64,000 nucleotides of DNA from Bradyrhizobium sp. LLZ17 (GTDB lineage: Bacteria; Pseudomonadota; Alphaproteobacteria; Rhizobiales; Xanthobacteraceae), in NCBI RefSeq assembly GCF_041200145.1, contig NZ_CP165734.1, positions 7,173,001 through 7,237,000 of the forward strand, given 5' to 3'. Position 1 is the stretch's first letter. Each line of letters starts with the position of its first letter. The translations under genes were made by a program, and so were the position numbers. This document shows positions 27,840 to 42,218 of the stretch, piece after piece. The notes below the pieces were generated by a model. It searched no databases, had not been told where the DNA came from, and saw nothing but the letters and a program-made list of their open reading frames with translations.

Positions 27840-28733
27840 CTACTTGTAGAGCCGTGCCGCCGCGCGAGTCCCTCGGTCCACGCTCTTGCGGAATAGGCCG
27901 TCGTTAGGGGGTACCACGACGTGACTAGAGTGGGGAACCAGTGGAGCAGGCTCGTTGAGCTGCCCCATTTCGGAGATCACCTCGAGAGGCTTCGAGATCC
28001 CTCTTCCTGCATCGACGACTGTGGGCGCGCGGTCGTTCGCCGCGCGCACCAGCGATCCATGGTTCATTCCCCAGATTGCTGCCTGAGTCCGGTTCTGAAC
28101 TCGGATCTTGCGCAGGATCGCCTTTACGTGGACCTTCACGGTCGCCTCGGCGATCTTGATCTTTCGGGCAATGCACTTGTTGGAATCGCCTTCGATAAGG
28201 CAGGACAGAATTGCCTTTTCTCGCGGAGAGAGCTGCGGCGAGATCGCGTCCTCTGTAGCGGCGAGGATTGCCTGTTCGCATTCGCTGGGATCCGCAGTTT
28301 CGCGTTCGCGATTGGCATCAAGGGCGAATGACAGGAATGCAGGCGGGAAGACGGTCTCGCCCATCGTCACGAGCTCGACGGATTTGATGAATGCGTCGCA
28401 CGAATTAACGTTCACGAAGTAGCCGTTGGCGCCGGCACGAAACGCAGATGCAAGATCAACCGGCCGGTAATTGTCGCATACGATCGCAATGCGCGCGTCC
28501 GGATAACGATCCTTCACAAATCCGATTTGCGCTATCGCGAGATTGAAGCCTTCGCCCGAATGGACGATGAGGAACATCAGTTTGTCGGCTTGAAGTGAAC
28601 TCGGCAATTCCTCGGGGCTCGACGCCGAAACCGGGATATGAAAATTTGCCGCGTGCAGAATTTTAGCGATGCCTTCTCTAATTAAGACGTTCTTTCCAAT
28701 AAGAACGGTCTCGCAAGACTGCCGCCTCCTCAT
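27840..28733 (-). CDS. LuxR/NarL-type transcription regulator with a degenerate receiver domain
   Basis: 297 aa. Residues about 8-125 have receiver-domain shape, but the acidic pocket (normally DD) is LIGKN at 11-15 and the phospho-acceptor strand ends IVHSGEG rather than D, so phosphorylation by a histidine kinase is unlikely. The LuxR HTH follows (LSPREKAILSCLIEG, NKCIARKIKIAEATVKVHVKAILRKI). A C-terminal tail of about 70 residues follows the HTH, unusual for this family. A GGAGGG site precedes the ATG at 28733. It faces away from the second regulator across 680 bases and may control EPS genes. Confidence 0.85.
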   Translation of the reverse strand: MRRRQSCETVLIGKNVLIREGIAKILHAANFHIPVSASSPEELPSSLQADKLMFLIVHSGEGFNLAIAQIGFVKDRYPDARIAIVCDNYRPVDLASAFRAGANGYFVNVNSCDAFIKSVELVTMGETVFPPAFLSFALDANRERETADPSECEQAILAATEDAISPQLSPREKAILSCLIEGDSNKCIARKIKIAEATVKVHVKAILRKIRVQNRTQAAIWGMNHGSLVRAANDRAPTVVDAGRGISKPLEVISEMGQLNEPAPLVPHSSHVVVPPNDGLFRKSVDRGTRAAARLYK

Positions 28734-29412
28734 TTAACCCTCCAGCCAACTACGCAGTGACACAACAGCGATGCAGTTAAACTTATTGGTTTATAATTTC
28801 CCGCCGGACGAACGAGCCCGTGTTCGTTTGGTCGTTCTCCGTCGGTTTCTGGTCTTCAGAACTATCGAGGTACCTCGATCGAGATCCTTCTTTCTTGTCT
28901 TGCCTATCCTTTCGCTGTGGATTTCGGGAAATCCATGTTGCTTAAGCTTTTATAAATGGTAGACGCGAATTTTAGATTGCCCTATATATCGTTCGTTATA
29001 GGAGGTCGCACTGCGTAAGAGCCGTGCCAGACGGTTTCGGCACAATCTGTACGTGAACTAAATGAGCGTGTTCATTTGATGTTGAAAAAATTCAACGTAG
29101 TTCGTTACATGAGCAACGTGTGCTCGAACACAGGCGCCTAGGCGAGCCATCGTTGCCTCTATTTTAGGTTGAGTGGCGCTGCTGTTTACCGCGTCCGTCA
29201 GCAAGCATTCGCCCAGCGCAGTCTGAGCGCGTGATTCTATTCGTGATTCTATTGAAGTGCAGATTGCTGGCTGACAGTTGGGACGCGAACTGCGTCGGGC
29301 GCCGACCATGCTTGTATTAGGAGAAATTTCGGATGATTCTTCTTCAGCAGCTGAAATAGCAGAAGGTGCACGGAGTTTATGGTTGGGGGAGCGACTGGCT
29401 TAGGAGCGCCCG
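28734..29412. promoter_or_regulatory. AT-rich region between two divergent LuxR-type regulators
   Basis: About 680 bases with markedly higher AT than the surroundings, holding the start regions of both regulators. Short ORFs inside lack support. A TATATAT/TATAGGAGG patch occurs near 28983-29006 with no start codon at a suitable distance, and the 12-base word CGTGATTCTATT is repeated in tandem near 29230-29255. Exact promoters cannot be assigned. Confidence 0.45.
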
Positions 29413-30054
29413 ATGCGACCTACTAGAGTAGTCATTGCAGACCGGCATCCGGTGGTCTTGCAGGGACTGAGTGACATGCTCGGTGCCGCGGCCGATTTCA
29501 ATATAGTTGCATCTTGTAGCGACGCCACGAGTTGCATCGAAGCGATCCGGAACTTGGCGCCCGATATCGCGATTGTCGATCCCGCGATGCCTGAGCTTGC
29601 CGCCGCGAGAATTCTTTCGGCCGTCCATTCAGAAAATGGATCGACCCATTTGGTGTTTTTCGCCGCGAGTGAACATTGCGAACTGGTACTCGCGGCAACG
29701 GCCGTGACCTATAGTATCATCCTGAGAGACACCGATATCAGGTCGCTGGTGCAGTCGTTGCGGCATATCGCCGATAGTCACAGGCTGCTGCCCTCGGCCC
29801 CATCCGAGCCGATCGTGTCGCACGAGCAGGGCTCCAACTCGGGGAATGGGCTGACAGCGCTGACCGAACGCGAGCGTCAGATCATGCGTCTGGTTTCGGA
29901 AGGATTGTCGAACAAGGAAATCGGGCGGCGCTTGAACATTGTCGACGGCACCATCAAGGTGCACCTTCACAACATCTTTCAAAAGCTTGAAATCAGCAAT
30001 CGGACGGCCCTCGCAGCTCTCGCCATTTCGCAACAAGATCGCGTGGAACGCTGA
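29413..30054 (+). CDS. NarL/FixJ-type response regulator
   Basis: 213 aa. Receiver domain with Asp10 (VIADRHP) and phospho-acceptor Asp56 (IAIVDPAMP); the usual switch Lys is replaced by Arg in ILRDTD. The C-terminal LuxR HTH is intact (LTERERQIMRLVSEGLSNKEIGRRLNI, GTIKVHLHNIFQKL). A TAGGAGCG site precedes the ATG at 29413. No histidine kinase gene is near, so its input is unknown. It may act with the receiver-defective paralogue at 27840-28733. Confidence 0.88.
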   Translation: MRPTRVVIADRHPVVLQGLSDMLGAAADFNIVASCSDATSCIEAIRNLAPDIAIVDPAMPELAAARILSAVHSENGSTHLVFFAASEHCELVLAATAVTYSIILRDTDIRSLVQSLRHIADSHRLLPSAPSEPIVSHEQGSNSGNGLTALTERERQIMRLVSEGLSNKEIGRRLNIVDGTIKVHLHNIFQKLEISNRTALAALAISQQDRVER

Positions 30055-30887: not shown

Positions 30888-31613
30888 TCAGGCGGTGCTA
30901 CCGGCGTCGACCGTTACTACGGTACCGGTGATGTTCCGGCCGCCTTCGCCGAGAAGATATTCGACCATGGAAGCGACGTCGTCGGCTTCGGGCAGGTGGC
31001 GCAATGCGCTGCGGCTGGCAATGCGTCGACGGCCTTCTTGGTCCAAGGAGCTGGTCAATTCCGTGTCGATGAAGCCGGGCGCGATCGCGTTCACGGTGAT
31101 GCCGACCCTGCCGACTTCTCGGGCCAGCGAACGGGTGAAGCCGGCAACGGCGGCTTTGGACGCGGCATACACAGACAGGCCGCTGTAGCCTGTCGAGGCG
31201 ATGATAGAGGAAATGTTGACGATCCGCCCCGCGCCGTCGGCCATCATATGGCGCGCCACGTATTTGGTCAGGATAATCGGCGACAGTACGTTCAGGCGGA
31301 TCAAGGCCTCAATCTCGGAATTGTGCATGGTGGCCAGCAGCCCGTCGGTACCAATCCCGGCATTGTTGACGAGGCCGTAGATCGGGCCGAATTCGTCGCG
31401 CACTGATTTCGCGAAGCCCGAGATCGTTTCAGTGACCCCAAGGTCACAGGCGCGGAAATGCAGACGCCGTTGTGCTTCGCCGGCTGCAGCTGCAAGCTGT
31501 TCGCTCTCGCGGCGGGCCACCGCGACTACATTGTAGTCGCCGGATGCGGCGAGCCGGTGCGCGATGGCAAGACCAATACCGCGGCTGCCGCCGGTGACGA
31601 GGACGTTACGCAT
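30888..31613 (-). CDS. SDR-family 3-oxoacyl-ACP reductase-like enzyme (FabG-type)
   Basis: 241 aa NAD(P)H-dependent reductase. GGSRGIG (8-14), NNAG (83-86) and the catalytic Ser136-Tyr149-Lys153 are intact; the C-terminus (GTVVTVDAG) is FabG-like. Its ATG overlaps the end of the AMP-ligase gene by 8 bases, so it is the last gene of the leftward five-gene operon and translationally coupled. In that setting it would reduce a beta-keto acyl group on one of the two carrier proteins. Substrate inferred only from context. Confidence 0.88.
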   Translation of the reverse strand: MRNVLVTGGSRGIGLAIAHRLAASGDYNVVAVARRESEQLAAAAGEAQRRLHFRACDLGVTETISGFAKSVRDEFGPIYGLVNNAGIGTDGLLATMHNSEIEALIRLNVLSPIILTKYVARHMMADGAGRIVNISSIIASTGYSGLSVYAASKAAVAGFTRSLAREVGRVGITVNAIAPGFIDTELTSSLDQEGRRRIASRSALRHLPEADDVASMVEYLLGEGGRNITGTVVTVDAGSTA

Positions 31614-32991
31614 CGGTGCGCGCCAGTTTGCCCGCTGCCGTGACGTCGAGCCGCTCGACGAACCGGATCACCGCCGGCACCTTCCATGCTGCCAGGCAAT
31701 CTTTGCAGCGCCCGAGGATCTCAGCGCGAATCGTGTCGTGGCGCTCCGCATCGGTGCAGTTGGCGAGGACGACGTCCGCGACCACAATGGCGCCGGTGAT
31801 CGGGCTCCTGCGCGATCGCGCGCGCGACATCTGGACGGAGGCATGTCGGTTGATCACGGCTTCCACTTCCTCCGGATGCACCTTTAACCCGCCGATGTTG
31901 ATGATGCCGCCTCGCCGGCCGATGAAGTGGTATCGCTCGCCGCGCAGCTCGACCATATCGCCGGTATCGACGAAGCCCTCGGCGTCGGCGAGCGGCGGCG
32001 CGTCGGCGCCGACATAGGAGCGCGCGGTACGATGGGAGCGGATCCGCAGCGAGCCGTCGACCACCTTCATTTCAACGCCGGCATGATTCTGCCCGATCAA
32101 GTGGGCAGGAAAACCCTCGCGCCCATCGTCCACGCTGAAACCGACGCCGGCCTCGGTCGAGGCATAGGCGTGCCCGATTGACGCATGCGGAAATGCCCTG
32201 GCCAGGCCGTCCAGCACCGGCTGGTCGGCGATTTCGCCGGACAGACGGACATAGTCCGGCGAGAAGTTGGCGGACGCGCCGCTCATCAGGAGCTTGCGCC
32301 AGTGCGACGGGGTCCCGGAGATGTGGGTGACGCCGCCCGCGCGCAGCCGCGCCACATAGGCAGCGACGGCTTCCCCGGGTTCCGACAGCACCATCGATCC
32401 GCCGCCGATCACGGCCCGCAGGAAAATTTGCAGGCCGCCGTAGCGGCGGATGTCGTAGAACGTCGCCCAGGTTGCGTTCCGGTGGCGCGCAGGCACGTCG
32501 GCGATGATCGCGCCAGCGAGCCCATCGAGCGTATGTCGGACAATCTTCGGCAGCCCTGATGTGCCTGACGTCAGCATGAGCCACTCGGTCGCGCGATCGA
32601 CCTCCGATCCCATGGCCCTCCGTTGCGGCAGGTCGACGCCGATAACGATGTACTTGCCAGCCCGGCTTCGGTGGAACGGCCGATCGGTGACGATCGTGTC
32701 GATATCGGCCTGTTCGAGCAGGACCTCCAGGCGATCCCAATCGAGGTCAGGCGGGCATAGAAGCACGCGGCGGGCAACGCCGTCGAGCTCGATCATCGCT
32801 AGTGCGGAGAGCAGCTGTCCCGACGTCGCAAGCAGCACCGAGCGGCCGGACAGCTCGCAGGATCTACCGCTCAGGCAGCTGTGCTGGATGATGTCGGTCA
32901 GCGATACAACGTGCAGGCCATCGGAAATCGTGCGGCTCTTCAGCTCTGGGCCGAGGTATTGGCGCAGCGCGATGATATCAGGCGGGGACAT
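31606..32991 (-). CDS. Acyl-AMP ligase (ANL superfamily), probably loading the adjacent ACP
   Basis: About 461 aa. The P-loop LMLTSGTSGLPK, the A5-like YASTEAG, the GFVDTGDMVELRGERYHFIGRRGGIINIGGLKVHPEEVE hinge region and the C-terminal TAAGKLARTD Lys are all present. The N-terminal part is shorter than in standard acyl-CoA synthetases. The frame is open further up, but the ATG at 32991, which overlaps the ACP stop by 14 bases, fits an operon start. Likely activates a carboxylic acid and passes it to ACP 2 encoded just upstream. Confidence 0.82.
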   Translation of the reverse strand: MSPPDIIALRQYLGPELKSRTISDGLHVVSLTDIIQHSCLSGRSCELSGRSVLLATSGQLLSALAMIELDGVARRVLLCPPDLDWDRLEVLLEQADIDTIVTDRPFHRSRAGKYIVIGVDLPQRRAMGSEVDRATEWLMLTSGTSGLPKIVRHTLDGLAGAIIADVPARHRNATWATFYDIRRYGGLQIFLRAVIGGGSMVLSEPGEAVAAYVARLRAGGVTHISGTPSHWRKLLMSGASANFSPDYVRLSGEIADQPVLDGLARAFPHASIGHAYASTEAGVGFSVDDGREGFPAHLIGQNHAGVEMKVVDGSLRIRSHRTARSYVGADAPPLADAEGFVDTGDMVELRGERYHFIGRRGGIINIGGLKVHPEEVEAVINRHASVQMSRARSRRSPITGAIVVADVVLANCTDAERHDTIRAEILGRCKDCLAAWKVPAVIRFVERLDVTAAGKLARTDA

Positions 32992-33223
32992 TCTCGTAGG
33001 CTCTGACAAACTCGCCGAGGGTAGACGGGAAGGCTGCGTCCTCGGCGACAGTGAAGGGATCGACACCGAGCTCGTCCTCCAGCCGCGCTACCAGGATGGC
33101 GAATGCCAGCGAATCGAACCCGGTTTCATTCAGTGACAGATCGTCCTCAAGCGGCGGAAGCGTGACCTTCTGTTCCTCGGCAATTTGTATCATCGCGGAG
33201 AAAATTTTCGATTTGACCGACAT
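32978..33223 (-). CDS. Acyl carrier protein 2
   Basis: 81 aa four-helix carrier protein. The phosphopantetheine site is Ser38 in TGFDSLAF, followed by the acidic helix LVARLEDELGVDPF. The ATG at 33223 has GTGAGGTG upstream; a longer open frame above it is ignored because it lies inside the ligase spacer. It is sandwiched between two AMP-forming ligases, either of which could load it. Confidence 0.88.
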   Translation of the reverse strand: MSVKSKIFSAMIQIAEEQKVTLPPLEDDLSLNETGFDSLAFAILVARLEDELGVDPFTVAEDAAFPSTLGEFVRAYENVPA

Positions 33224-33257
33224 AGTACACCTCACATCTCGGCTTTCCGAGCCGATG

Positions 33258-35075
33258 TTAGAGCCTGATTTCACCCGCGACAATGCGGCCGTAGACCGCG
33301 CGGTCCATCGAAACATAGTCGCCGGTCGTTGGATCACGCAGGAACAGCGGATCGTCCACGGCCGAAGGATCAAATCCCTCGCGGATCAGCCGCTGCTTCT
33401 TCTGCTTAAATGTGTCGGTCGCTTCGAGCGCCTGGCACAACCTGACGAAGGCTGGAACTGCATAGCGCGGAAGCCGATACGAGACATGTTCTCTGAATAT
33501 CCCGAAATCGAAACGTCGGTCCACGACCAAGGCCACCATGCCGGCGCGACCATCGGCCCCGGACACCGCAACCCCATAGGTCGAGGCGTCGAGAACACCG
33601 GGGCAGTCCCTGATTGCATCGTTTACTTCGCTCGTCGAGACGTTCTCGCCCTTCCAGCGGAAGGTGTCGCCCACGCGATCGACAAAGTGTAAGTAGCCCT
33701 GCTCATCGCGCAGCATCAGATCACCGGTGCGGAACCACGCGTCGCCCTCGGTAAAGGCGTTGCGCAAGATCTTTTTCTCGGTCTCGGCCGGATCCGTGTA
33801 GCCCTCGAAAGGTACGCCGTCGCGATCGGCGCTGCCGATGCGCCCAATAGCTTCACCCGTCTCGCCAGGGGCGCAAGCGATGCAGAGCCCAGCCTCGCTG
33901 CGGAGTGGGCCGCCGCTGTCAGCATCGACCTTGATGATCGAGGCGGGAAAGCGATGCGCCAGCACCGGTGGGATCCGGCCGATCGACCCGGGTTTTCCTT
34001 CGACATTGAACAACGAAAGATTGCCTTCCGTTGCGGCGTAGAATTCGAGGATCTGCGGAATCGCGAATCGGCTCGCGAACACCTCCCAGATGTCGCCGCG
34101 CAATCCGTTGCCGACAGCCAGTCGCAGCCGGTGTCGGGCCTCTGGCTCGGACGACTGCGCCTTCAGCAGATAGCGGCAGAGCTCGCCAATATATTGGAAG
34201 ATGGTGCAGTCGAAACGCACGATGTCGTGCCAGAATCTGCTCGCAGAGAATTTCTCCGCAATCACCACCGATGCGCCGGCGCAGAGCATGCTGCAGGGGG
34301 CCGCGACACCGCCCACCGAGTGATGGAGCGGCAGGCAATCGTAGAGACGATCATCGATGGAGGCGTCCGTCACTCCGGCAAACCATCCGCCCCAGGTGAG
34401 AATGCGGCGATGACTGATGTTCGCTGCCTTCGGTAGTCCCGTAGTGCCCGAGGTATAGATTAGGAGCGCGCGTTGATCAATAGTGACGTCGCCGCGTTCG
34501 GCGGAGGACAGCGGACTTGGCTCGAACGCGGCGAGCGCCGCATCCAGATCGCCGCTTGCGTCATCGGTGCCAAGGATCCAACTTTGCGGCACGCGGCGCA
34601 GGTGGGGACGGGCGCTCTCAAACGCGTCCACGCAATCCGCAGCGAGGATGAGGTGATCCGCATCCGCGAGGTCGATGCAATGGGCGAGAGATCGGCCGAC
34701 CAGCTTGGTATTGATCAGTGCCACTGTCGCGCCGACGTTGCTGATGCCGAGCCAGCAGGCGAGGTAGTCCGGCTGGTTGGGCATCAGCAGACAGACGGTG
34801 CGGCCGGCTTGGAGGCCGAGGCCCCGCGCCCAGCGCGCATACCGGTTGATGCGGGCGGTGAGTTCGCCATAGGTGAACGATTGGCGGTCCGAGAGCAAGG
34901 CAGGTCGTTCGGGCTGATGCTGTGCCCATTCTTGCACAATGTCGGCGAGCAACCGCCGCGGTTGGGCTTCGACCCGCGCCGTTTGTGCAATTGCCTGGAG
35001 CCAGGTCTTAGCGGCGGAGCGTCTGCGCCGCGGACCGCCGGGTTTGGTCGCGCGCCGGATCGCGGCTGTTTTCAC
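33258..35075 (-). CDS. FATP-type long-chain acyl-CoA synthetase
   Basis: About 605 aa ANL enzyme. P-loop LLIYTSGTTGLPKAANISH, EFYAATEGNLSLFN, and the strictly conserved FATP/VLACS stretch HFVDRVGDTFRWKGENVSTSEV, with YAVPAFVRL and FKQKKQ near the C-terminus (Lys region). This subgroup activates long-chain fatty acids. The start is uncertain: GTG at 35075 gives the usual family length, TTG at 35159 adds an Arg-rich extension. It lies between carrier protein 1 and ACP 2, suggesting the pathway involves a fatty-acyl group. Confidence 0.85.
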   Translation of the reverse strand: MKTAAIRRATKPGGPRRRRSAAKTWLQAIAQTARVEAQPRRLLADIVQEWAQHQPERPALLSDRQSFTYGELTARINRYARWARGLGLQAGRTVCLLMPNQPDYLACWLGISNVGATVALINTKLVGRSLAHCIDLADADHLILAADCVDAFESARPHLRRVPQSWILGTDDASGDLDAALAAFEPSPLSSAERGDVTIDQRALLIYTSGTTGLPKAANISHRRILTWGGWFAGVTDASIDDRLYDCLPLHHSVGGVAAPCSMLCAGASVVIAEKFSASRFWHDIVRFDCTIFQYIGELCRYLLKAQSSEPEARHRLRLAVGNGLRGDIWEVFASRFAIPQILEFYAATEGNLSLFNVEGKPGSIGRIPPVLAHRFPASIIKVDADSGGPLRSEAGLCIACAPGETGEAIGRIGSADRDGVPFEGYTDPAETEKKILRNAFTEGDAWFRTGDLMLRDEQGYLHFVDRVGDTFRWKGENVSTSEVNDAIRDCPGVLDASTYGVAVSGADGRAGMVALVVDRRFDFGIFREHVSYRLPRYAVPAFVRLCQALEATDTFKQKKQRLIREGFDPSAVDDPLFLRDPTTGDYVSMDRAVYGRIVAGEIRL

Positions 35076-35213
35076 GGACTGTTCTTGCAGTAGGGTTGGA
35101 CCGACATCGGGGCGCACCTGCTCGCTGGTTGGCGAGTCACGGCCGGAGCGACGTTGCAATCACTCTCGACCGGCTCGCGAGCTTGTCGAAGTAGAATCTC
35201 TTTTCGGCCGACG

Positions 35214-35483
35214 TTATCCCGATCCAGGTCCGAGCTGGTTAAGGATCATTCGCTGAACGGTCTTCACCGACTGGAAATTTTCTGGCGTGATCTCGAGTTG
35301 AGGAAGGACGAGATCGAATTCGGCTTCAACCTTGAGCATCAGCTCGACCATACCCACCGAGCTCAGCCCGATATCCACCAGCCGTGACTCTGGGTGGAGA
35401 TCGGCAGTGATGGCGTTCTGCTGGAGGACGCTCCTGACGACGGATAGAACACGGTTTTGAACGTTGACGACAATGTCGTGCAT
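35214..35483 (-). CDS. Carrier protein 1, likely partner of the amino acid:[carrier protein] ligase
   Basis: 89 aa. Helix-rich protein with DIGLSSVGMVELMLKVEAEF; Ser42 occupies the phosphopantetheine position, but the preceding residue is Ser rather than the usual Asp, as I recall for carrier proteins served by aaRS-like ligases. The ATG at 35483 follows AAGGGGGCC at good spacing. First gene of the leftward operon, divergent from the flavoprotein and ligase genes that probably use it. Confidence 0.82.
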   Translation of the reverse strand: MHDIVVNVQNRVLSVVRSVLQQNAITADLHPESRLVDIGLSSVGMVELMLKVEAEFDLVLPQLEITPENFQSVKTVQRMILNQLGPGSG

Positions 35484-35717
35484 TTCACTGGCCCCCTTGG
35501 CGCAGTAGGGAGTGATCACAATCGGGGAGGACGATACCCAACTGCTCCTCGGCTCAATAGCTCTGCTTCGGAGGTACCTCGCCTGGGAGTGGAACTAGCC
35601 TGACACCCTCTTCTGCGCCAACGACGCAGCAACGGAAGTAGGCTAGCTGTTCATTTTGAGCGGAATTCATTTCGAGCTGGTCGCGTCGTTCAAATATAAA
35701 AACAGGAGGCTTTGGCC
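35484..35717. promoter_or_regulatory. Divergent promoter region of the carrier-protein gene cluster
   Basis: 234 bases separate the first genes of the two divergent operons. The part nearest 35680-35705 is AT-rich (CAAATATAAAAACAGGAGG), giving the rightward operon an AGGAGG site. No operator could be assigned. Confidence 0.55.
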
Positions 35718-36935
35718 ATGAGTGTGCAGGAGGTCAAGCTCCGCAACTTCGCTTTGGAAGTCGGCCGAGCGGGTTATGGTTCCTCATTTCGGCAGCGGAT
35801 GGCAAATGTCGCCGAGGTCGCTGCGACGGAGGCTGAGGCGGTCGATCGCGAGGCGCGCTTCCCGCAGAAAGCGATCGACGCTGCGCGCGAGGAGAGACTT
35901 TTGGGCGCTCAGATTCCGATCGAGCTCGGTGGGGACGGCGCGTCTATCTCCGAGGTGACCGATATGTGTTACGGGCTCGGCCGCGCTTGCGCCTCCGCCG
36001 GAATGATCTTCGCGATGCATCAGACCAAGATCGCGTGTCTGGTCCGCCACGGCGCGGGCAGCGATTGGCACGAAAGTCTCATGCGCCGCGTGGCCGCCGA
36101 ACAGTTGCTGCTTGCATCCTCGACGACGGAAGGTCAGAACGGCGGAAACATACGCTTCAGCTCGGCCGCAGTAGAACGCGCTGATAACGAGATTTCGCTC
36201 GTGCGCGACGCGACGGTGATTTCGTACGGTGCCGAGGCGGACGGCATCGTCACTGTCGCCCGCCGCTCTGACTCTTCCGCTGGATCGGATCAGGTGCTGC
36301 TCGCCATCACCCGCGACGATTATACGCTGGAGCCCACTCTCGCGTGGGAAACGCTTGGCATGCGAGGGACCTGCAGCGCGGGGTTCAAGTTGAACTTCAG
36401 GGGCACCGCGGACCAGATATTCCCTGTGCCATACGAAAAGATCCATGCGCAGACGATGACGCCCGTCGCCCACTTGTGCTGGTCCTCGGTCTGGGCTGGG
36501 ATCGCGGCTGCGGCGGTGGACCGCGCGCAGCTCTTCATCCGCAAGGCCGCCCGCGGGTCGGGCGGCAATATGCCTCCCGGCGCTGCGCATTTCACCGCTG
36601 CCAAAATGACGCTGACGAAATTGCGCGCCATCATCGCCGCAGATCTCCAGCTCTACGAGGTTCGCGAACGGGACGAGCGTGCGCTGTCGTCCGTCGACTT
36701 CCAGTCCTCGATCAATCTTCTGAAGGTGGAGGCCTCCGAGCTCGCGGTCACGGCCGTCATGCACGCGATGCGCGCCTGCGGCCTATCAGGTTATCGCAAC
36801 GACACCGACGTAAGTATCGGCCGCCATCTGCGCGACGTGCTTTCCGCTCCGATAATGATCAACAATGACCGGATCCTCGCCAGTGTCGGTAGCGCCACGC
36901 TGATGAGCACCGTCCCAGAGTCCCTGCGCGATTGA
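35718..36935 (+). CDS. Acyl-CoA-dehydrogenase-like flavoprotein
   Basis: 405 aa with the ACAD plan: N-terminal helical domain (YGLGRACASAGMIFAMHQTK), beta domain with LLASSTTEGQNGGN and LAWETLGMRGTCSAGFKL (flavin and substrate contacts), and C-terminal four-helix domain. The catalytic Glu cannot be placed with certainty. ATG 35718 has AGGAGG 8 bases upstream. Next to an aminoacyl carrier-protein ligase, the nearest functional parallel is the prolyl-carrier-protein dehydrogenases of pyrrole pathways, so oxidation of a carrier-bound aminoacyl or acyl thioester is inferred. Confidence 0.85.
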   Translation: MSVQEVKLRNFALEVGRAGYGSSFRQRMANVAEVAATEAEAVDREARFPQKAIDAAREERLLGAQIPIELGGDGASISEVTDMCYGLGRACASAGMIFAMHQTKIACLVRHGAGSDWHESLMRRVAAEQLLLASSTTEGQNGGNIRFSSAAVERADNEISLVRDATVISYGAEADGIVTVARRSDSSAGSDQVLLAITRDDYTLEPTLAWETLGMRGTCSAGFKLNFRGTADQIFPVPYEKIHAQTMTPVAHLCWSSVWAGIAAAAVDRAQLFIRKAARGSGGNMPPGAAHFTAAKMTLTKLRAIIAADLQLYEVRERDERALSSVDFQSSINLLKVEASELAVTAVMHAMRACGLSGYRNDTDVSIGRHLRDVLSAPIMINNDRILASVGSATLMSTVPESLRD

Positions 36936-36960
36936 TTTTTCCCCAGAAGGAATAGGCTTG

Positions 36961-37965
36961 ATGAACGTGGCCATTGTTGAAGCACCCGGGGATGCCACTC
37001 CGACTCCGGTCGATCCGTTAGACCATCTCGCCGATGCGCTGTTTCACGAGATGGGCTCTCCCGGGATCTATGGCCGCACCGCCCTCTATGAAGGCGTCGT
37101 GGAGCGAATTGGGACGGTGATCTCACGGAATCGCGAAACGAATACTGAGGTGATGCGCTTCCCGCCCGTGATGAACCGTGCCCAGCTTGAGAAGTCAGGC
37201 TATCTGAAGAGCTTTCCCAACCTCCTCGGCTGCGTCTGTGGCCTGCACGGCACGGAAAGCGAGATTGACGCGGCGGTCAGCCGTTTCGATGCCGGCGGTG
37301 ACTGGACCGCGTCGCTATCGCCGGCTGATCTCGTTCTGTCGCCGGCCGCCTGCTATCCGGTCTATCCGATCGCGGCGAGCCGAGGTCCGGTGCCGGCAGG
37401 CGGCTGGAGCTTCGACGTGGCCGCCGATTGTTTCCGTCGTGAGCCCTCGCGCCATCTCGACCGGCTGCAGTCCTTCAGGATGCGCGAATTCGTTTGCATC
37501 GGTAGTCCCGATCACGTCTCGGCGTTCCGCGAGCGCTGGATCATGCGCGCCCAGAAGATGGCGCGAGATCTGGGGCTAACCTTCAGGGTCGACTATGCCA
37601 ACGACCCGTTCTTCGGCCGGGTCGGTCAGATGATGGCGGTGAGCCAAAAGCAGCAGTCACTGAAGTTCGAACTGCTGGTGCCTCTGCGCTCCGAGGAGCG
37701 ACCGACCGCCTGCATGAGCTTCAACTACCACCGGGATCATTTCGGCACCGCCTGGGGCATCGTCGATGCGGCCTCTGAGCCGGCCCACACCGCCTGCGTC
37801 GCCTTCGGAATGGACCGTCTCGCCGTCGCCATGTTCCATACCCACGGCAAAGACGTCGCACTGTGGCCGATCGCGGTGCGGGAGCTGCTGGGCTTCGCGC
37901 AGACCGATTATGGGACGCCGCCAGTGTTCGAGGAGTTCCGATGCGCCAGGGAAGTCGCGAGCTAG
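36961..37965 (+). CDS. Amino acid:[carrier protein] ligase (class II seryl-tRNA-synthetase-like)
   Basis: 334 aa. Catalytic core of class II aminoacyl-tRNA synthetases without tRNA-binding domain: motif 2 CFRREPSRHLDRLQSFRMREF (157-177), motif 3 FGMDRL (282-287). Zinc ligands Cys131, Glu176 and Cys279 stand at the positions I recall for Bll0957 of B. japonicum, which loads glycine onto a dedicated carrier protein instead of tRNA. ATG 36961 with GAAGGAAT upstream is supported by this numbering. It starts 25 bases after the flavoprotein gene. The amino acid used here is likely Gly or another small one, untested. Confidence 0.92.
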   Translation: MNVAIVEAPGDATPTPVDPLDHLADALFHEMGSPGIYGRTALYEGVVERIGTVISRNRETNTEVMRFPPVMNRAQLEKSGYLKSFPNLLGCVCGLHGTESEIDAAVSRFDAGGDWTASLSPADLVLSPAACYPVYPIAASRGPVPAGGWSFDVAADCFRREPSRHLDRLQSFRMREFVCIGSPDHVSAFRERWIMRAQKMARDLGLTFRVDYANDPFFGRVGQMMAVSQKQQSLKFELLVPLRSEERPTACMSFNYHRDHFGTAWGIVDAASEPAHTACVAFGMDRLAVAMFHTHGKDVALWPIAVRELLGFAQTDYGTPPVFEEFRCAREVAS

Positions 37966-37998
37966 CCCGGGATCGAAAGGCCGCGGGGCCAGCCTCCA

Positions 37999-39270
37999 TG
38001 AGGAGAGACTCTCGCGGTCCACGGCGGCTTCGAGTGCGATCCGGCAACCAAGGCCGTTGCCGTACCTATCTACCAGACCGCCTCGTATGCATTCGACAGC
38101 GCCGACCATGGAGCTGCGCTCTTCAACCTCGAAGTAGACGGCTTCCGCTACACCCGGATTGGCAATCCGACCAACGCCGTGCTGGAGAAGCGCGTCGCCG
38201 CCCTTGAAGGAGGCATCGAGGCACTCAGCGTAGCCTGTGGTCAGGCCGCGGTGAATTATGCGGTGGTCAACATCGCGGAGATGGGCACCAACATCGTCTC
38301 GGTTCCGCAACTTTACGGCACCACGCATACGCTGTTCGCGCACATCCTGCCGAGGCAGGGCATCACCGTCCGGTTTTCGGAAGACGACCGGCCGGAGAAC
38401 GTGGAAAGACTGATCGACGACGATACGAGAGCGGTGTTCTGCGAGAGCGTCGGAAATCCGGCTGGAAACGTCTGCGACATCGAAGCGATGGCTGACGTCG
38501 CGCACAGGCACGGCGTTCCGCTCATCGTCGACAACACGGTACCGACACCGATCCTGCTCAGGCCGATCGAATACGGCGCAGACATCGTCGTGGAGTCGCT
38601 AACGAAATTCATGGGCGGGCATGGCACCACACTCGGCGGAATTATCATCGACAGCGGCAGGTTCCCGTGGGCGGAGCATCGCCGGCGCTTCCCAATGATG
38701 AACGAGCCGGAGAATTCCTACCACGGTCTGGTCTTCACCGAGCGGTACGGAGCTGCCGCCTACATTGCCCGTTGCCGCGCCGTCTCCCAGAGGACCATCG
38801 GCGCCGTCCTGGCGCCGATGAACGCTTTCCTGCTGCTCCAGGGCATTGAGACCGTCGCGCTCCGGATCGAGCGGCACGTCGAAAATGGCGCCAAGGTCGC
38901 GCGGTTCTTGCGCGATGACCCCCGTGTCGGGTGGGTGAATTATGCGGGCTTTCACGACAGCCGCTATTTCGCGCTGACACAGAAGTATTTAGGTGGCCGG
39001 GGCTGTTCGCTGCTGACGTTTGGCGTGGCTGGTGGCTTCGAGGCGGGCAAGCGGTTTTACGACGCGCTGAAGCTGTGCAAGCGGCTGGTCAATATTGGCG
39101 ACGCGAAATCGCTCGCCTGCCACCCTGCATCGACAACGCACCGCCAAATGTCGCCTGAAGAACAGGACAAAGCCGGCGTGCGGCCCGAGATGATCAGGCT
39201 GAGCGTCGGAATCGAGCACATCGACGACATCATCGCGGATCTCGATCAGGCCCTCAGTGCCGCGAACTGA
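37999..39270 (+). CDS. MetY/O-acetylhomoserine-sulfhydrylase-like PLP enzyme, N-terminus disturbed by a frameshift
   Basis: The family N-terminus is readable as ETLAVHGGFE..PATKAVAVPIYQTASYAFDSADHGAALF..YTRIGNPTNAVLE, but in that frame no ATG, GTG or TTG occurs between the stop at about 37999 and 38179; an ATG at 37999 lies in another frame, so a frameshift near 38000-38008 is suspected. PLP Lys is in ESLTKFMGGHG (codon 38605); HPASTTH near the C-terminus is conserved. Such enzymes replace the gamma substituent of acyl-homoserine. With the MetA-like gene next to it, it probably makes a gamma-substituted amino acid or takes part in methionine-type chemistry. Confidence 0.85.
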
Positions 39271-39297
39271 TGTTTCGTCAACCATGAAGGCATTCGG

Positions 39298-40404
39298 ATG
39301 ACTGTCTTGATCGACATAGATCCGCAAGAACACCACCTCTTCTCGAGAGCGCGGATTGGAGGCGCTGATGCCACGGCGTCAATTGAAAACCAGGCGGAGT
39401 GCCTTGACATCGCGATTATCAACAATATGTCGGATGCTGCCTTGATGTCGACCGAGCGCCAACTGTTCGACCTACTCGATGCGGCGGCCGGACGACTTTG
39501 CGTCAGGCTGCATTTCTATACGATGGCGGCGACACCCCGTTCGGAATGGGGGCACGATTACGTCGGTCGATATTACCGTGGCATCGACGATCTGTTGAAC
39601 AGGCGTCTGGATGGGGTGATCGTGACCGGCGCCGAACCCAAGGCCGCCAGTCTGACGGAAGAGCCATATTGGAACACTTTCGCAGAGATCGTCGACTGGG
39701 CCGGGGAAAATACCGTGTCGTCGGTGTTTTCCTGTCTGGCTGTCCATGGGGCCGTCCTCCACACGGACGGCGTTCCGCGCCACAAGCTGCCTACCAAGTG
39801 CTTCGGTGTCTTTGCTCAAACAAAGACGCGACGTCATCCCTTGATGCAAGATGTGCCCAAGACCTTCAGAATACCGCACGCCAGGTGGAACGAGGTGGAG
39901 GAGGGGAATCTCGCGAGCTGCGGATACTCGGTTCTCACCTGGTCGGCCGAGGCCGGCGTCGATTGCTTCGTCAAGCAGCGGAAGAAGAGCCTGTTCGTCC
40001 ATTTCCAGGGCCACCCGGAATACGAAACGCAGAGCCTGCTCGGCGAATACAGGCGAGATATGGGTCGCTTCCTCCGGGGAGAGAACGAAGTCTGTCCGAC
40101 GCTACCGAAGGGCTACTTCGGCGAGGAGGCGGAAGCGATCCAGGTCGCTTTCCGACAGAAAGCCCTTTCCGACAGGCACCCTGGGCTTTTCGCCGACTTT
40201 CCAGCCGATCAAATAGCGAAGGACCTGAACAACGTCTGGCATCTGCCGGCCAAGCGCATCTATCGCAACTGGTTGCTGTACCTGGCGTCGCAGCGAGTTG
40301 GACGCTCAAAGCCGCTCGGGACGCGAGAGGCGGCTCTGTCCGTAGCCGGAATTTCGGCACCTCGCCATGTTGCCGCTCGATCCGCTCGCGCTCGCCAAGC
40401 CTGA
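39298..40404 (+). CDS. Homoserine O-acyltransferase of the MetA family
   Basis: 368 aa. MetA fold with LDIAIINNMSDAAL, VTGAEP, catalytic Cys146 (SCLAVHGAV), RIPHARWNEV and FQGHPEYE giving His239 and Glu241; spacing matches the Cys142-His235-Glu237 triad of E. coli MetA. The enzyme transfers a succinyl or acetyl group to the homoserine hydroxyl. The C-terminus is longer than usual. GAAGGC precedes the ATG at 39298, 28 bases after the MetY-like gene; the pair would activate homoserine and then substitute it. Probably a pathway-specific copy rather than the housekeeping metA. Confidence 0.87.
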   Translation: MTVLIDIDPQEHHLFSRARIGGADATASIENQAECLDIAIINNMSDAALMSTERQLFDLLDAAAGRLCVRLHFYTMAATPRSEWGHDYVGRYYRGIDDLLNRRLDGVIVTGAEPKAASLTEEPYWNTFAEIVDWAGENTVSSVFSCLAVHGAVLHTDGVPRHKLPTKCFGVFAQTKTRRHPLMQDVPKTFRIPHARWNEVEEGNLASCGYSVLTWSAEAGVDCFVKQRKKSLFVHFQGHPEYETQSLLGEYRRDMGRFLRGENEVCPTLPKGYFGEEAEAIQVAFRQKALSDRHPGLFADFPADQIAKDLNNVWHLPAKRIYRNWLLYLASQRVGRSKPLGTREAALSVAGISAPRHVAARSARARQA

Positions 40405-40447
40405 TGACCAAGACGCGGCTCGGATTTTATGAGTGAGAATTCGGACC

Positions 40448-41302
40448 ATGATCCGTTGCCGCGAGATGGGCATAGCTGATCTTGACGCCATCGCCGATCT
40501 TCTCGCAAGCGGTTTTCCGATGCGATCGCGCGACTACTGGGTCGACGGACTCCGGCGCATGTCAGTGCGTGAGGTACCCGAGGGCTTCCCGCGCTTCGGC
40601 TACCTGCTTGACCATGATGGAACGCCCGTCGGCGCTCTGCTGTTGATCCACTCGGCACGGAACGATGACGGCTGTACCTCGATCCGCTGCAATCTCTCCA
40701 GCTGGTATGTGGAACCTGCCTTTCGCAGCTACGCTCCGATGCTGGCCAGGGTCGCGCAGCGTCACAAGGACGTCACCTACATCAATATCAGTGCGGCGCA
40801 ATGGACTTGGCGAGCCATCGAAGCTCAGGGATTCCGCCGCTATTGCGGCGGCATGTTCTTCTCATTTCCAGCGGTGTCGCGTCCCGCCAAGGCTATGCGT
40901 GTCGAAGTCGTCGGGCAAGACGCGCAGGCGGTCGCCGGCTTGTCCGAAGCTGACGCCACGCTGCTTGCACGTCACGCAGCCTACGGCTGCCTCAGCTTGG
41001 TATGCCGCGCCGCCGATGGCCGCGCCTTTCCGTTCGTCCTGCAGCCGATGCGAATCCGCAGGATCGCACCTCTCGCCATGCAGCTGATCTATTGCGCCCA
41101 TGTGGCTGACTACGTCGCGTGCGCCGGCGCGATCGGCCGCTTCCTGCTCTGGCGTGGCCGAATCTCCGTCGCTTTGGAGGCCAACGGCCGCATGGAGAAC
41201 CTGGTCGGGCTCTACAGGGAACGTCGCAAATACTTCAAGGGTCCGCATCGCCCCCGGCTTGCCGATCTGTCGGATTCCGAGCTGGTGATCTACGGACCAT
41301 AA
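40448..41302 (+). CDS. GNAT-like N-acyltransferase, paralogue of the GNAT domain at 50 kb
   Basis: About 284 aa. N-terminal GNAT half (CREMGIADLDAIADLLASGFP, GALLLIH, IRCNLSSWYVEPAFRSYAPML, VTYINISAAQWTWRAIEAQGF) and a second half of unknown fold. CNLSSW followed by a short insert and an arginine is shared with the C-terminal domain of the fused protein at 47.8-50.9 kb and replaces the usual R/Q-x-x-G-x-G/A acetyl-CoA loop, so the acyl donor may be a carrier protein. GTG at 40433 is an alternative start. Lies between MetA-like and aminotransferase genes. Confidence 0.72.
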   Translation: MIRCREMGIADLDAIADLLASGFPMRSRDYWVDGLRRMSVREVPEGFPRFGYLLDHDGTPVGALLLIHSARNDDGCTSIRCNLSSWYVEPAFRSYAPMLARVAQRHKDVTYINISAAQWTWRAIEAQGFRRYCGGMFFSFPAVSRPAKAMRVEVVGQDAQAVAGLSEADATLLARHAAYGCLSLVCRAADGRAFPFVLQPMRIRRIAPLAMQLIYCAHVADYVACAGAIGRFLLWRGRISVALEANGRMENLVGLYRERRKYFKGPHRPRLADLSDSELVIYGP

Positions 41303-41330
41303 CTCCGTCGTCCCGGAATGGAGGTTCGCC

Positions 41331-42218
41331 ATGGTTTCCAACACGAGGTCCGTCAGCCATTCGCGGACATGGACATTCTTCCACGGCCAATGGCACGACG
41401 GCAATGTGCCGATCATGGGGCCGCGTACCCATGGGCTGTGGCTCGGTTCGACCATCTTTGATGGCGGACGTGCCTTTGAAGGCGTTACACCTGACCTCGA
41501 TCGTCATTGCGCCCGCGTCAACCAATCTGCGGTCAACTTTGGGCTGAAACCGGTCGTTGATCTCGACATGTGGCTGGGATTGGCGCGTGAGGGTATCGCC
41601 CGTTTCCCGACCAATGCTGAACTCTACATTCGCCCGATGTACTGGCCGCAGAGCGGCATCGGCGGCGGCGTGCTTTTCGATCCGGAGACAACGGACTGGT
41701 GCCTTTGCATCTACGAATCGCCGATCCCGGAGCCTAAGGGCAGCGCGATCACGCTGTCGCCGTTCCGCAGGCCGACCACCGAATGCGCGCCCGCCGATGC
41801 CAAAGCATCATGTCTTTACCCGAACAGTTCCCGTGCGCTCGTGGAGGCCGCATCGCGGGGCTTCCAGAATTGCTTAATGTTGGACATGCTCGGCAACGTG
41901 GCGGAGTTCGGCAATTCCAACGTGTTCATGGCGAAAGAGGGCGTTGTCTATACGCCGGCGCCGAATGGCACGTTCCTGAACGGAATCACGCGGCAACGGG
42001 TGATCGAACTTTTGCGCGGTGACGGCAGCACGGTGCTCGAGACAACGCTGCGCTATGCCGATTTCGTCGCCGCGGACGAGATCTTTTCGACCGGAAATTT
42101 CGCCAAGGTTGCGCCCGTGATCCGGATTGATGATCGGCAACTCTTGCCCGGGCGCTTTTATGCGCGTGCACGAAAGCTGTATTGGGATTTCGCACACGGG
42201 ATGAAGCTTGTGGCGTGA
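41331..42218 (+). CDS. Class IV aminotransferase (branched-chain-type)
   Basis: 295 aa fold-type IV PLP enzyme. The PLP Lys158 is in DAKASCLYPNSSRAL; NVAEFGNSNVF and NGITRQRVIELL bind the cofactor phosphate, as in IlvE. Near-full length for the family. GGAGG precedes the ATG at 41331. Last gene of the rightward operon; in context it probably aminates a keto acid built by, or deaminates an amino acid entering, the pathway. A housekeeping branched-chain role cannot be excluded. Confidence 0.87.
   Translation: MVSNTRSVSHSRTWTFFHGQWHDGNVPIMGPRTHGLWLGSTIFDGGRAFEGVTPDLDRHCARVNQSAVNFGLKPVVDLDMWLGLAREGIARFPTNAELYIRPMYWPQSGIGGGVLFDPETTDWCLCIYESPIPEPKGSAITLSPFRRPTTECAPADAKASCLYPNSSRALVEAASRGFQNCLMLDMLGNVAEFGNSNVFMAKEGVVYTPAPNGTFLNGITRQRVIELLRGDGSTVLETTLRYADFVAADEIFSTGNFAKVAPVIRIDDRQLLPGRFYARARKLYWDFAHGMKLVA

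Follow-up and report, generated by a model that had tools for sequence, protein, structure and literature searches.

An eleven-gene cluster around an amino acid:carrier-protein ligase in Bradyrhizobium sp. LLZ17, a candidate second class of such ligase systems

Genes of the divergent cluster

We analyzed a window of 64,000 nucleotides from Bradyrhizobium sp. LLZ17 (bases 7173001-7237000 of one 7.80 Mb contig) and identified, at window positions 30888-42218, eleven genes arranged as two divergent operons around an amino acid:[carrier protein] ligase that resembles aminoacyl-tRNA synthetases (aaRS; Table 1). The minus-strand operon encodes, in this order, the carrier protein ACP1, the AMP-forming ligase LigB, a second carrier protein (ACP2), a second AMP-forming ligase (LigA) and a short-chain dehydrogenase/reductase (SDR). 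The plus-strand operon encodes a flavoprotein with an acyl-CoA dehydrogenase (ACAD) fold, the aaRS-like amino acid:[carrier protein] ligase (aaCPL), MetY, MetA, a probable GNAT acyltransferase and a class IV aminotransferase. Intergenic spacing within both operons ranges from -14 to +54 bases, with the LigA start codon (ATG 32991) overlapping the stop of ACP2, and 198 bases separate the two first genes. An initial annotation, made from the window alone, had listed these eleven genes; ten of them are intact, and the exception is metY, the frame of which is broken just after its start. The unity of the gene set is well supported by the comparisons below, and its chemistry is presented as a testable proposal. 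On balance, we consider it probable from sequence that the eleven genes form one biosynthetic unit, belonging to a second (LigA) class of amino acid:carrier-protein ligase system, in which two carrier lines lead to one small metabolite.

Table 1. Positions of the cluster genes, the promoter palindrome and nearby regulators in the window
Feature	Coordinates	Strand	Basis
SDR (FabG-like reductase)	30888..31613	-	PF00106 E 6e-55
LigA, AMP-forming ligase (MenE-like), class marker	31606..32991	-	PF00501/PF13193
ACP2, carrier protein, DSL site	32978..33223	-	PF00550 E 2e-6 and sequence
LigB, long-chain acyl-CoA-synthetase-like AMP ligase	33258..35159	-	NF006134 756 bits, cut-off 625
ACP1, aminoacyl carrier protein, GLSS site	35214..35519	-	4h2s chain C match, E 5e-29
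Palindrome GAGGTACCTC	35571..35580	.	Divergent promoter region
ACAD-fold flavoprotein	35718..36935	+	PF02771 E 5e-10, profile against solved structures, conservation
aaRS-like amino acid:[carrier protein] ligase (aaCPL)	36961..37965	+	NF005479 474 bits, cut-off 357; Bll0957/3mey E 6e-175
MetY (O-acylhomoserine sulfhydrylase family)	38000..39270	+	TIGR01326 514 bits, cut-off 495; frame broken near start
MetA (homoserine O-acyltransferase)	39298..40404	+	NF003776 467 bits, cut-off 358
Probable GNAT acyltransferase	40448..41302	+	Names of relatives; acetyltransferase fold matches of weak model
Class IV aminotransferase (PRK13356)	41331..42218	+	NF009896 470 bits, cut-off 262; PF01063
LuxR-type regulator, possible cluster regulator	27840..28733	-	PF00196
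LuxR-type response regulator, possible cluster regulator	29413..30054	+	PF00196, PF00072

The ligase exceeds its NCBIfam cut-off and aligns with Bll0957 (PDB 3mey) across 312 residues. ACP1, encoded near it, matches the ‘Aminoacyl carrier protein 1’ of structure 4h2s (chain C) over 89 residues that include the serine region, and is thus a cognate-type carrier. These matches bear out the earlier proposal of one functional unit built around carrier proteins, with an aaRS-like ligase and its cognate carrier. The Bradyrhizobium structures represent the same ligase type and the same carrier type as the window; they cover the ligase and the carrier alone, whereas the window ties nine further genes to them. 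We take glycine to be the substrate of Bll0957, and to our knowledge the purpose of the aaRS-like amino acid:carrier-protein ligases is still not known. By the dates in the reference list of one review, such ligases have been characterized from 2010 onward, and a table in the same review lists glycine, alanine and serine as their substrates (PMC9437257). Lists for a phaR mutant of B. diazoefficiens include bll0957 and the acd gene bll0958 among the genes with increased transcript and protein (PMC10888616).

Compared with solved structures, the flavoprotein family profile matched short-chain acyl-CoA dehydrogenases best (98 and 84 bits), and the nitrososynthase group (3m9v, 4zxv and 3mxl) scored 69-72 bits, interspersed with further dehydrogenases (72 bits and below). 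This group comprises flavin N-oxygenases of the ACAD fold. The initial annotation had the window enzyme working in the manner of prolyl-carrier-protein dehydrogenases, an analogy that gained no specific support, and membership in that family we reject: the L-prolyl carrier-protein dehydrogenase model NF045652 gave 27 bits against a cut-off of 650, the prolyl-ACP dehydrogenase 4irn scored 55 bits against the best 98, and the protein falls below all NCBIfam cut-offs listed. The position of the C-terminal catalytic glutamate (register by sequence alignment only) is occupied by isoleucine or valine in 22/22 flavoproteins, so on this register the enzyme lacks the glutamate that marks short-chain acyl-CoA dehydrogenases. 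In other types of acyl-CoA dehydrogenase the catalytic base lies elsewhere; His101, His252, Trp255 and Trp259 are invariant in the same 22. For the isovaleryl-type base position, an alignment register set by hand was confirmed by no tool and was put aside. Given the mixed profile scores and the missing glutamate, we predict either dehydrogenation or oxygenation. The predicted structure has a mean pLDDT (model confidence score) of 43, from a shallow alignment.

SDR and LigA are below the cut-offs of all 25 NCBIfam models listed, and family-model scans of the GNAT protein gave zero matches; its predicted structure (mean pLDDT 54, shallow alignment) is a weak model that matches acetyltransferase folds. 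The start of LigB is uncertain, the longest option being a TTG at 35159.

Conservation, co-occurrence and two ligase classes

The initial annotation had named conservation of the neighborhood as a check on its proposal, and the survey found the set conserved in both a compact and a dispersed form. The ligase was found in 65/98 Bradyrhizobium genomes and, across the phylum, in 44/397, with E < 1e-80 in 33 of these 44. The compact form occurs in 15 of the 98 Bradyrhizobium genomes, in two of them decayed. Counting a gene as present in a locus if more than 40% was covered above an analyst-set identity floor, the 13 compact loci from other Bradyrhizobium (L066-L078) include seven with all eleven genes and four with nine or ten; eight genes were found in L068 and six in the truncated L078. 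A fourteenth compact locus from another genome (L203, genome G001) is decayed and stands outside these counts.

Outside the genus the genes recur as well. All eleven are present, in another order, in L089 (from another family) and in Bauldia litoralis (L165). Ten of the eleven were found in a Methylocystis (L110), a Methylocystaceae (L111), a Beijerinckiaceae metagenome-assembled genome (MAG; L177) and a Xanthobacteraceae MAG (L183), eight in L109, L112 and Lichenibacterium L181, and seven in L162. Linkage that persists despite reordering is strong evidence for a shared function. The Methylocystis MAGs L109 and L112 retain LigB, MetY, MetA, the aminotransferase, GNAT, ACP2, LigA and SDR, and the ligase was not found genome-wide.

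In the dispersed form, the more usual one in Bradyrhizobium, the set is split into unlinked loci over the chromosome. Searching for relatives of LigA yielded 345 confirmed hits, and in 71 of the best 80 loci, which were kept, only LigB-ACP2-LigA-SDR lie within the stretch (~21 kb). Other Bradyrhizobium loci carry ACP1-ACAD-ligase-GNAT together, with MetY, MetA and the aminotransferase nearby in L080-L083 and distant in the others. Distances, computed treating chromosomes as circular and with some sizes rounded, are ~430-3100 kb between ligase and LigA in the 20 genomes with positions listed; the separation of MetA and ligase is 0.6-2 Mb in 15 of the 20 and no more than 7 kb in five. Thus, inspection of the neighbors of the ligase alone would miss LigA, which, often together with MetA, lies hundreds of kb away.

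The dispersed genes nonetheless occur together. Across the 98 Bradyrhizobium genomes (thresholds of E <= 1e-3 for the ligase, 1e-60 for LigA, 1e-30 for MetA and 1e-30 for GNAT), the ligase is present in 65 and LigA, MetA and GNAT in 66 each. The four markers agree in 93 genomes (all in 63, none in 30) and are mixed in five (G001, G010, G023, G048 and G090); the MetA and GNAT profiles are identical in 98/98. These numbers count species rather than events. By sequence type, 59 genomes have dispersed copies of all three of ligase, LigA and MetA, and only two more have some of them. Among the 15 genomes bearing the compact form, nine keep the dispersed ligase, LigA and MetA, four have none of these three, and two have a decayed compact cluster and no dispersed set. 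One compact-bearing genome that has lost the dispersed set (G012) holds a second GNAT copy (contig C125, 28182-29048), 72% identical to the cluster copy and ~21 kb from it.

Starting from LigA gives a similar picture in genomes that overlap partly with the 98. The ligase was found in all 47 of the named LigA genomes searched (of 69) and in eight of eleven others, and not found for L109, L112 and L137. LigA and the ligase therefore co-occur in many named Bradyrhizobium strains, several of which we take to be legume symbionts. We base the unity of the genes on linkage (compact and reordered) and on co-occurrence without linkage, together with the replacement of the dispersed by the compact set, the identity of the carrier and the split into classes described next. 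The comparison thereby names genes tied to the ligase: LigA-ACP2-SDR, GNAT and MetA-MetY.

The ligase is also found with a different set of genes, marked by a DUF1839 protein. DUF1839 occurs in 19 of the 397 genomes of the phylum, all among the 33 with a clear ligase match. LigA, with the best four candidates per genome scored, occurs in 17 of the 397, 15 of them within the 33 and two of them distant relatives (33-35% identity). The 33 genomes divide into 18 with DUF1839 only, 14 with LigA only, one with both and none with neither; this split leaves out 11 weaker matches to the ligase, at 29-35% identity and with E values above 1e-33, none of them from a genome with DUF1839 or LigA. The dual-class genome (G262), the sole one of the 397, has DUF1839 adjoining the ligase, with LigA located on a different contig. 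DUF1839 has no match in the LLZ17 genome, and only one Bradyrhizobium of the 98 (G010) carries it, with a ligase 50% identical to that of the window and without LigA, MetA and GNAT. The DUF1839 class shares its front end with the window (carrier, ACAD-fold flavoprotein and ligase) but has DUF1839 and a glycoside hydrolase, seen in three annotated plasmids, instead of LigA, ACP2, SDR, GNAT, MetA and MetY. Two distinct sets of downstream genes thus go with one and the same loading enzyme.

The initial annotation knew of no described pathway with this gene set. This stands for the full set and for the LigA class, for which we found no recognized description in the open-licence literature; the core of the system, by contrast, was outlined in 2010. 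A note added in proof of that year proposed that an amino acid is joined to a surface amino sugar and that the redox enzyme carries out a monooxygenation (PMC2922099). The DUF1839 class is apparently the system of this note (Atu2574 type), and we infer that Atu2574 is a DUF1839 protein. DUF1839 was later assigned to the papain-like proteins (PMC10318531).

Proposed pathway and alternative readings

In the pathway that we propose, the aaRS-like ligase would load glycine onto ACP1 and the ACAD-fold flavoprotein would oxidize or oxygenate the resulting glycyl-S-ACP1. LigA, perhaps with LigB, would load a carboxylate onto ACP2, where SDR would reduce it. MetA and MetY would convert homoserine to a gamma-substituted 2-aminobutyrate, by way of O-acylhomoserine and a nucleophile, and the class IV aminotransferase would interconvert this compound and its keto acid. 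GNAT would acylate an amine and thereby release or cap the product, such that both carrier lines converge on one small amino-acid-derived metabolite. The sequence of steps, the coupling reaction and the final compound are all inferred. The presence of MetA and MetY suggests O-acylhomoserine as the four-carbon donor; MetY-family enzymes that form C-N or C-O bonds exist, and the rhizobitoxine pathway uses a MetY-type enzyme. The two AMP ligases, ACP2 and GNAT are compatible with the possible acylation of the product that the initial annotation suggested.

A functional parallel is the azaserine/triacsin system, in which the ACAD-family enzymes AzsF/Tri22 dehydrogenate a carrier-bound hydrazinoacetyl group (PMC10445470). 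By this analogy and by gene position, the flavoprotein of the window probably acts on a carrier-bound aminoacyl group. The likeness, which is one of described function, extends to a carrier-bound glycine-like acid, an N-acyltransferase, an AMP ligase and a carrier; unlike the window, the azaserine/triacsin system has a class I tRNA-ligase-like enzyme and different loading, and no MetA/MetY. The family assignments of the eleven genes include no hydrazinoacetate-forming enzyme of the kind used in those pathways. ACP1 is also weakly like AmcB, and LigA weakly like AmcH, of the cispentacin pathway (PMC10698177). A cispentacin-like pathway was rejected: the scores are 36.6 of 80 bits for AmcB and 44.5 of 370 bits for AmcH, and the gene families of the cluster include no ketosynthase pair.

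More tentatively, and as something we would not expect to hold in full, most Bradyrhizobium species with a Bll0957-type ligase may run a chromosome-wide two-carrier pathway. It would combine a flavin-modified glycyl thioester, an ACP2-bound acid and an O-acylhomoserine-derived four-carbon unit into a new class of natural product, with genes that all but exclude the glycan-type use of the ligase with DUF1839.

Several observations weigh against one shared pathway of the LigA class. The absences of LigA in the phylum are soft, because of the small number of candidates scored per genome, and the agreement of the four markers in 93/98 genomes overstates the number of independent events, because relatedness is uncontrolled. 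The four genomes in which the compact cluster replaces the dispersed set may be one clade. LigB-ACP2-LigA-SDR stands alone in 71/80 loci and could have its own task. Two Methylocystis MAGs and an Acidobacteria MAG, which may be incomplete, have LigA loci and no ligase that we could find, and the ligase and LigA are on separate contigs in G155, G101 (L090, L091) and G249 (L086). The flavoprotein and GNAT models are too poor to place residues, and metY is frame-broken in the window assembly.

The broken metY raises the possibility, unlikely in our view, that the cluster is not functional in LLZ17 and that its remaining genes are decaying. In the metY frame a start codon is missing upstream of 38179, from where the body is intact, whereas in the 20 relatives examined the frame runs in phase to an ATG. 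The window gene is 2 bp shorter than its nearest relative, and L066 has two extra bases in a GA repeat right after the ATG; the break may possibly be an assembly error. In favor of decay, the dispersed ACAD, MetY and MetA copies of the same genome (G000; L079, L199, L007) are also split between frames, by decay of a redundant set or by assembly indels, and two other genomes (G001 and G023) hold decayed compact clusters. The dispersed LigB of G000 carries an internal stop. Against decay, 10/11 genes are intact, and a 338-amino-acid reading frame outside the set (94% identity) is frame-split in the same assembly, which suggests assembly indels. The frame-split test also flagged antisense shadow frames, and its raw count (19/60) was not used.

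It is similarly unlikely, we think, that the locus makes a lipoamino acid or N-acyl amino acid signal, with LigB activating a fatty acid, ACP2 carrying it, GNAT acylating an amino acid made by MetA/MetY, and the glycine-ACP1 line as a side branch. LigB does pass a long-chain acyl-CoA synthetase cut-off, the weak GNAT model has a GNAT-like fold, and LuxR-type regulators adjoin the cluster. LigB is, on the other hand, missing within the fetched stretches of L087, L088, L110, L162 and L181 (the rest of those genomes was not searched), and the ligase is present in 55/58 LigA genomes searched, which would not be expected if it served a side branch.

The 2010 prediction, carried over to the window, would have the carrier-bound aminoacyl group undergo monooxygenation and attachment to a surface-polysaccharide amino sugar, an outcome that we judge improbable here. 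It was made for the ligase family (PMC2922099), DUF1839 relatives are located with a glycoside hydrolase, and the LigA-class loci L087 and L088 have as neighbors a Wzz-type chain-length protein and a GINT1_N/GH43-like protein, a hint of a tie to surface polysaccharides in those two genomes. DUF1839, the presumed joining enzyme, is nevertheless absent from the window genome and from 97/98 Bradyrhizobium, DUF1839 and LigA are nearly exclusive of each other, and surface decoration leaves MetA, MetY, the aminotransferase and ACP2 unexplained. Least probable of all is that MetA and MetY are ordinary methionine genes, nearby by chance, and the pathway consists of the carrier genes only: both proteins belong to methionine families and MetA is distant from the ligase in most of the listed genomes, but window-type MetA is absent (E <= 1e-30) from 32/98 Bradyrhizobium and its presence is that of GNAT in 98/98.

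Neighboring genes and the divergent promoter

Two further genes recur near the set. A thiamine-diphosphate enzyme lies near the aminotransferase in L071, L072, L076, L077 and L078 (5/13 compact loci) and in L089, L109-L112, L165 and L177, and its subfamily is PRK08199 in the three tested. We rejected it as a general member, as only 8/98 Bradyrhizobium have one (E <= 1e-130) and none was found in the window; it looks accessory. An alpha/beta hydrolase (PF07859) recurs in L080, L082, L083, L087, L088 and L165 and is a candidate release enzyme.

The region between the two operons contains a palindrome (Table 1). A site of the form GRGGTACCYC is present in the same region of 11/13 compact relatives and absent from L073 and the truncated L078; two of the eleven, L071 and L072, have the form GGGGTACCCC, in which both arms have changed together. 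As background, 118 other fetched loci (2.36 Mb) contain three GRGGTACCYC sites. In 18 loci that are dispersed or from outside Bradyrhizobium, the interval between ACP1 and ACAD, extended by 150 bases either way, holds no GGTACC core, and the palindrome is thus specific to the compact cluster. A sigma-54 promoter was rejected for this region, with no site of up to two mismatches between 35519 and 35718; window-wide, there are 38 such sites against 28 expected.

A 16-bp palindrome, ATCGAGGTACCTCGAT at 28864-28879, lies upstream of a LuxR gene and has its core in common with the promoter palindrome; it is not conserved, as the five aligned relatives have an imperfect copy or none. Both LuxR-type genes are located beyond SDR. 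Within the fetched stretches of the 13 compact relatives, homologs (>50%) of the minus-strand gene occur in seven and those of the plus-strand response regulator in eight.

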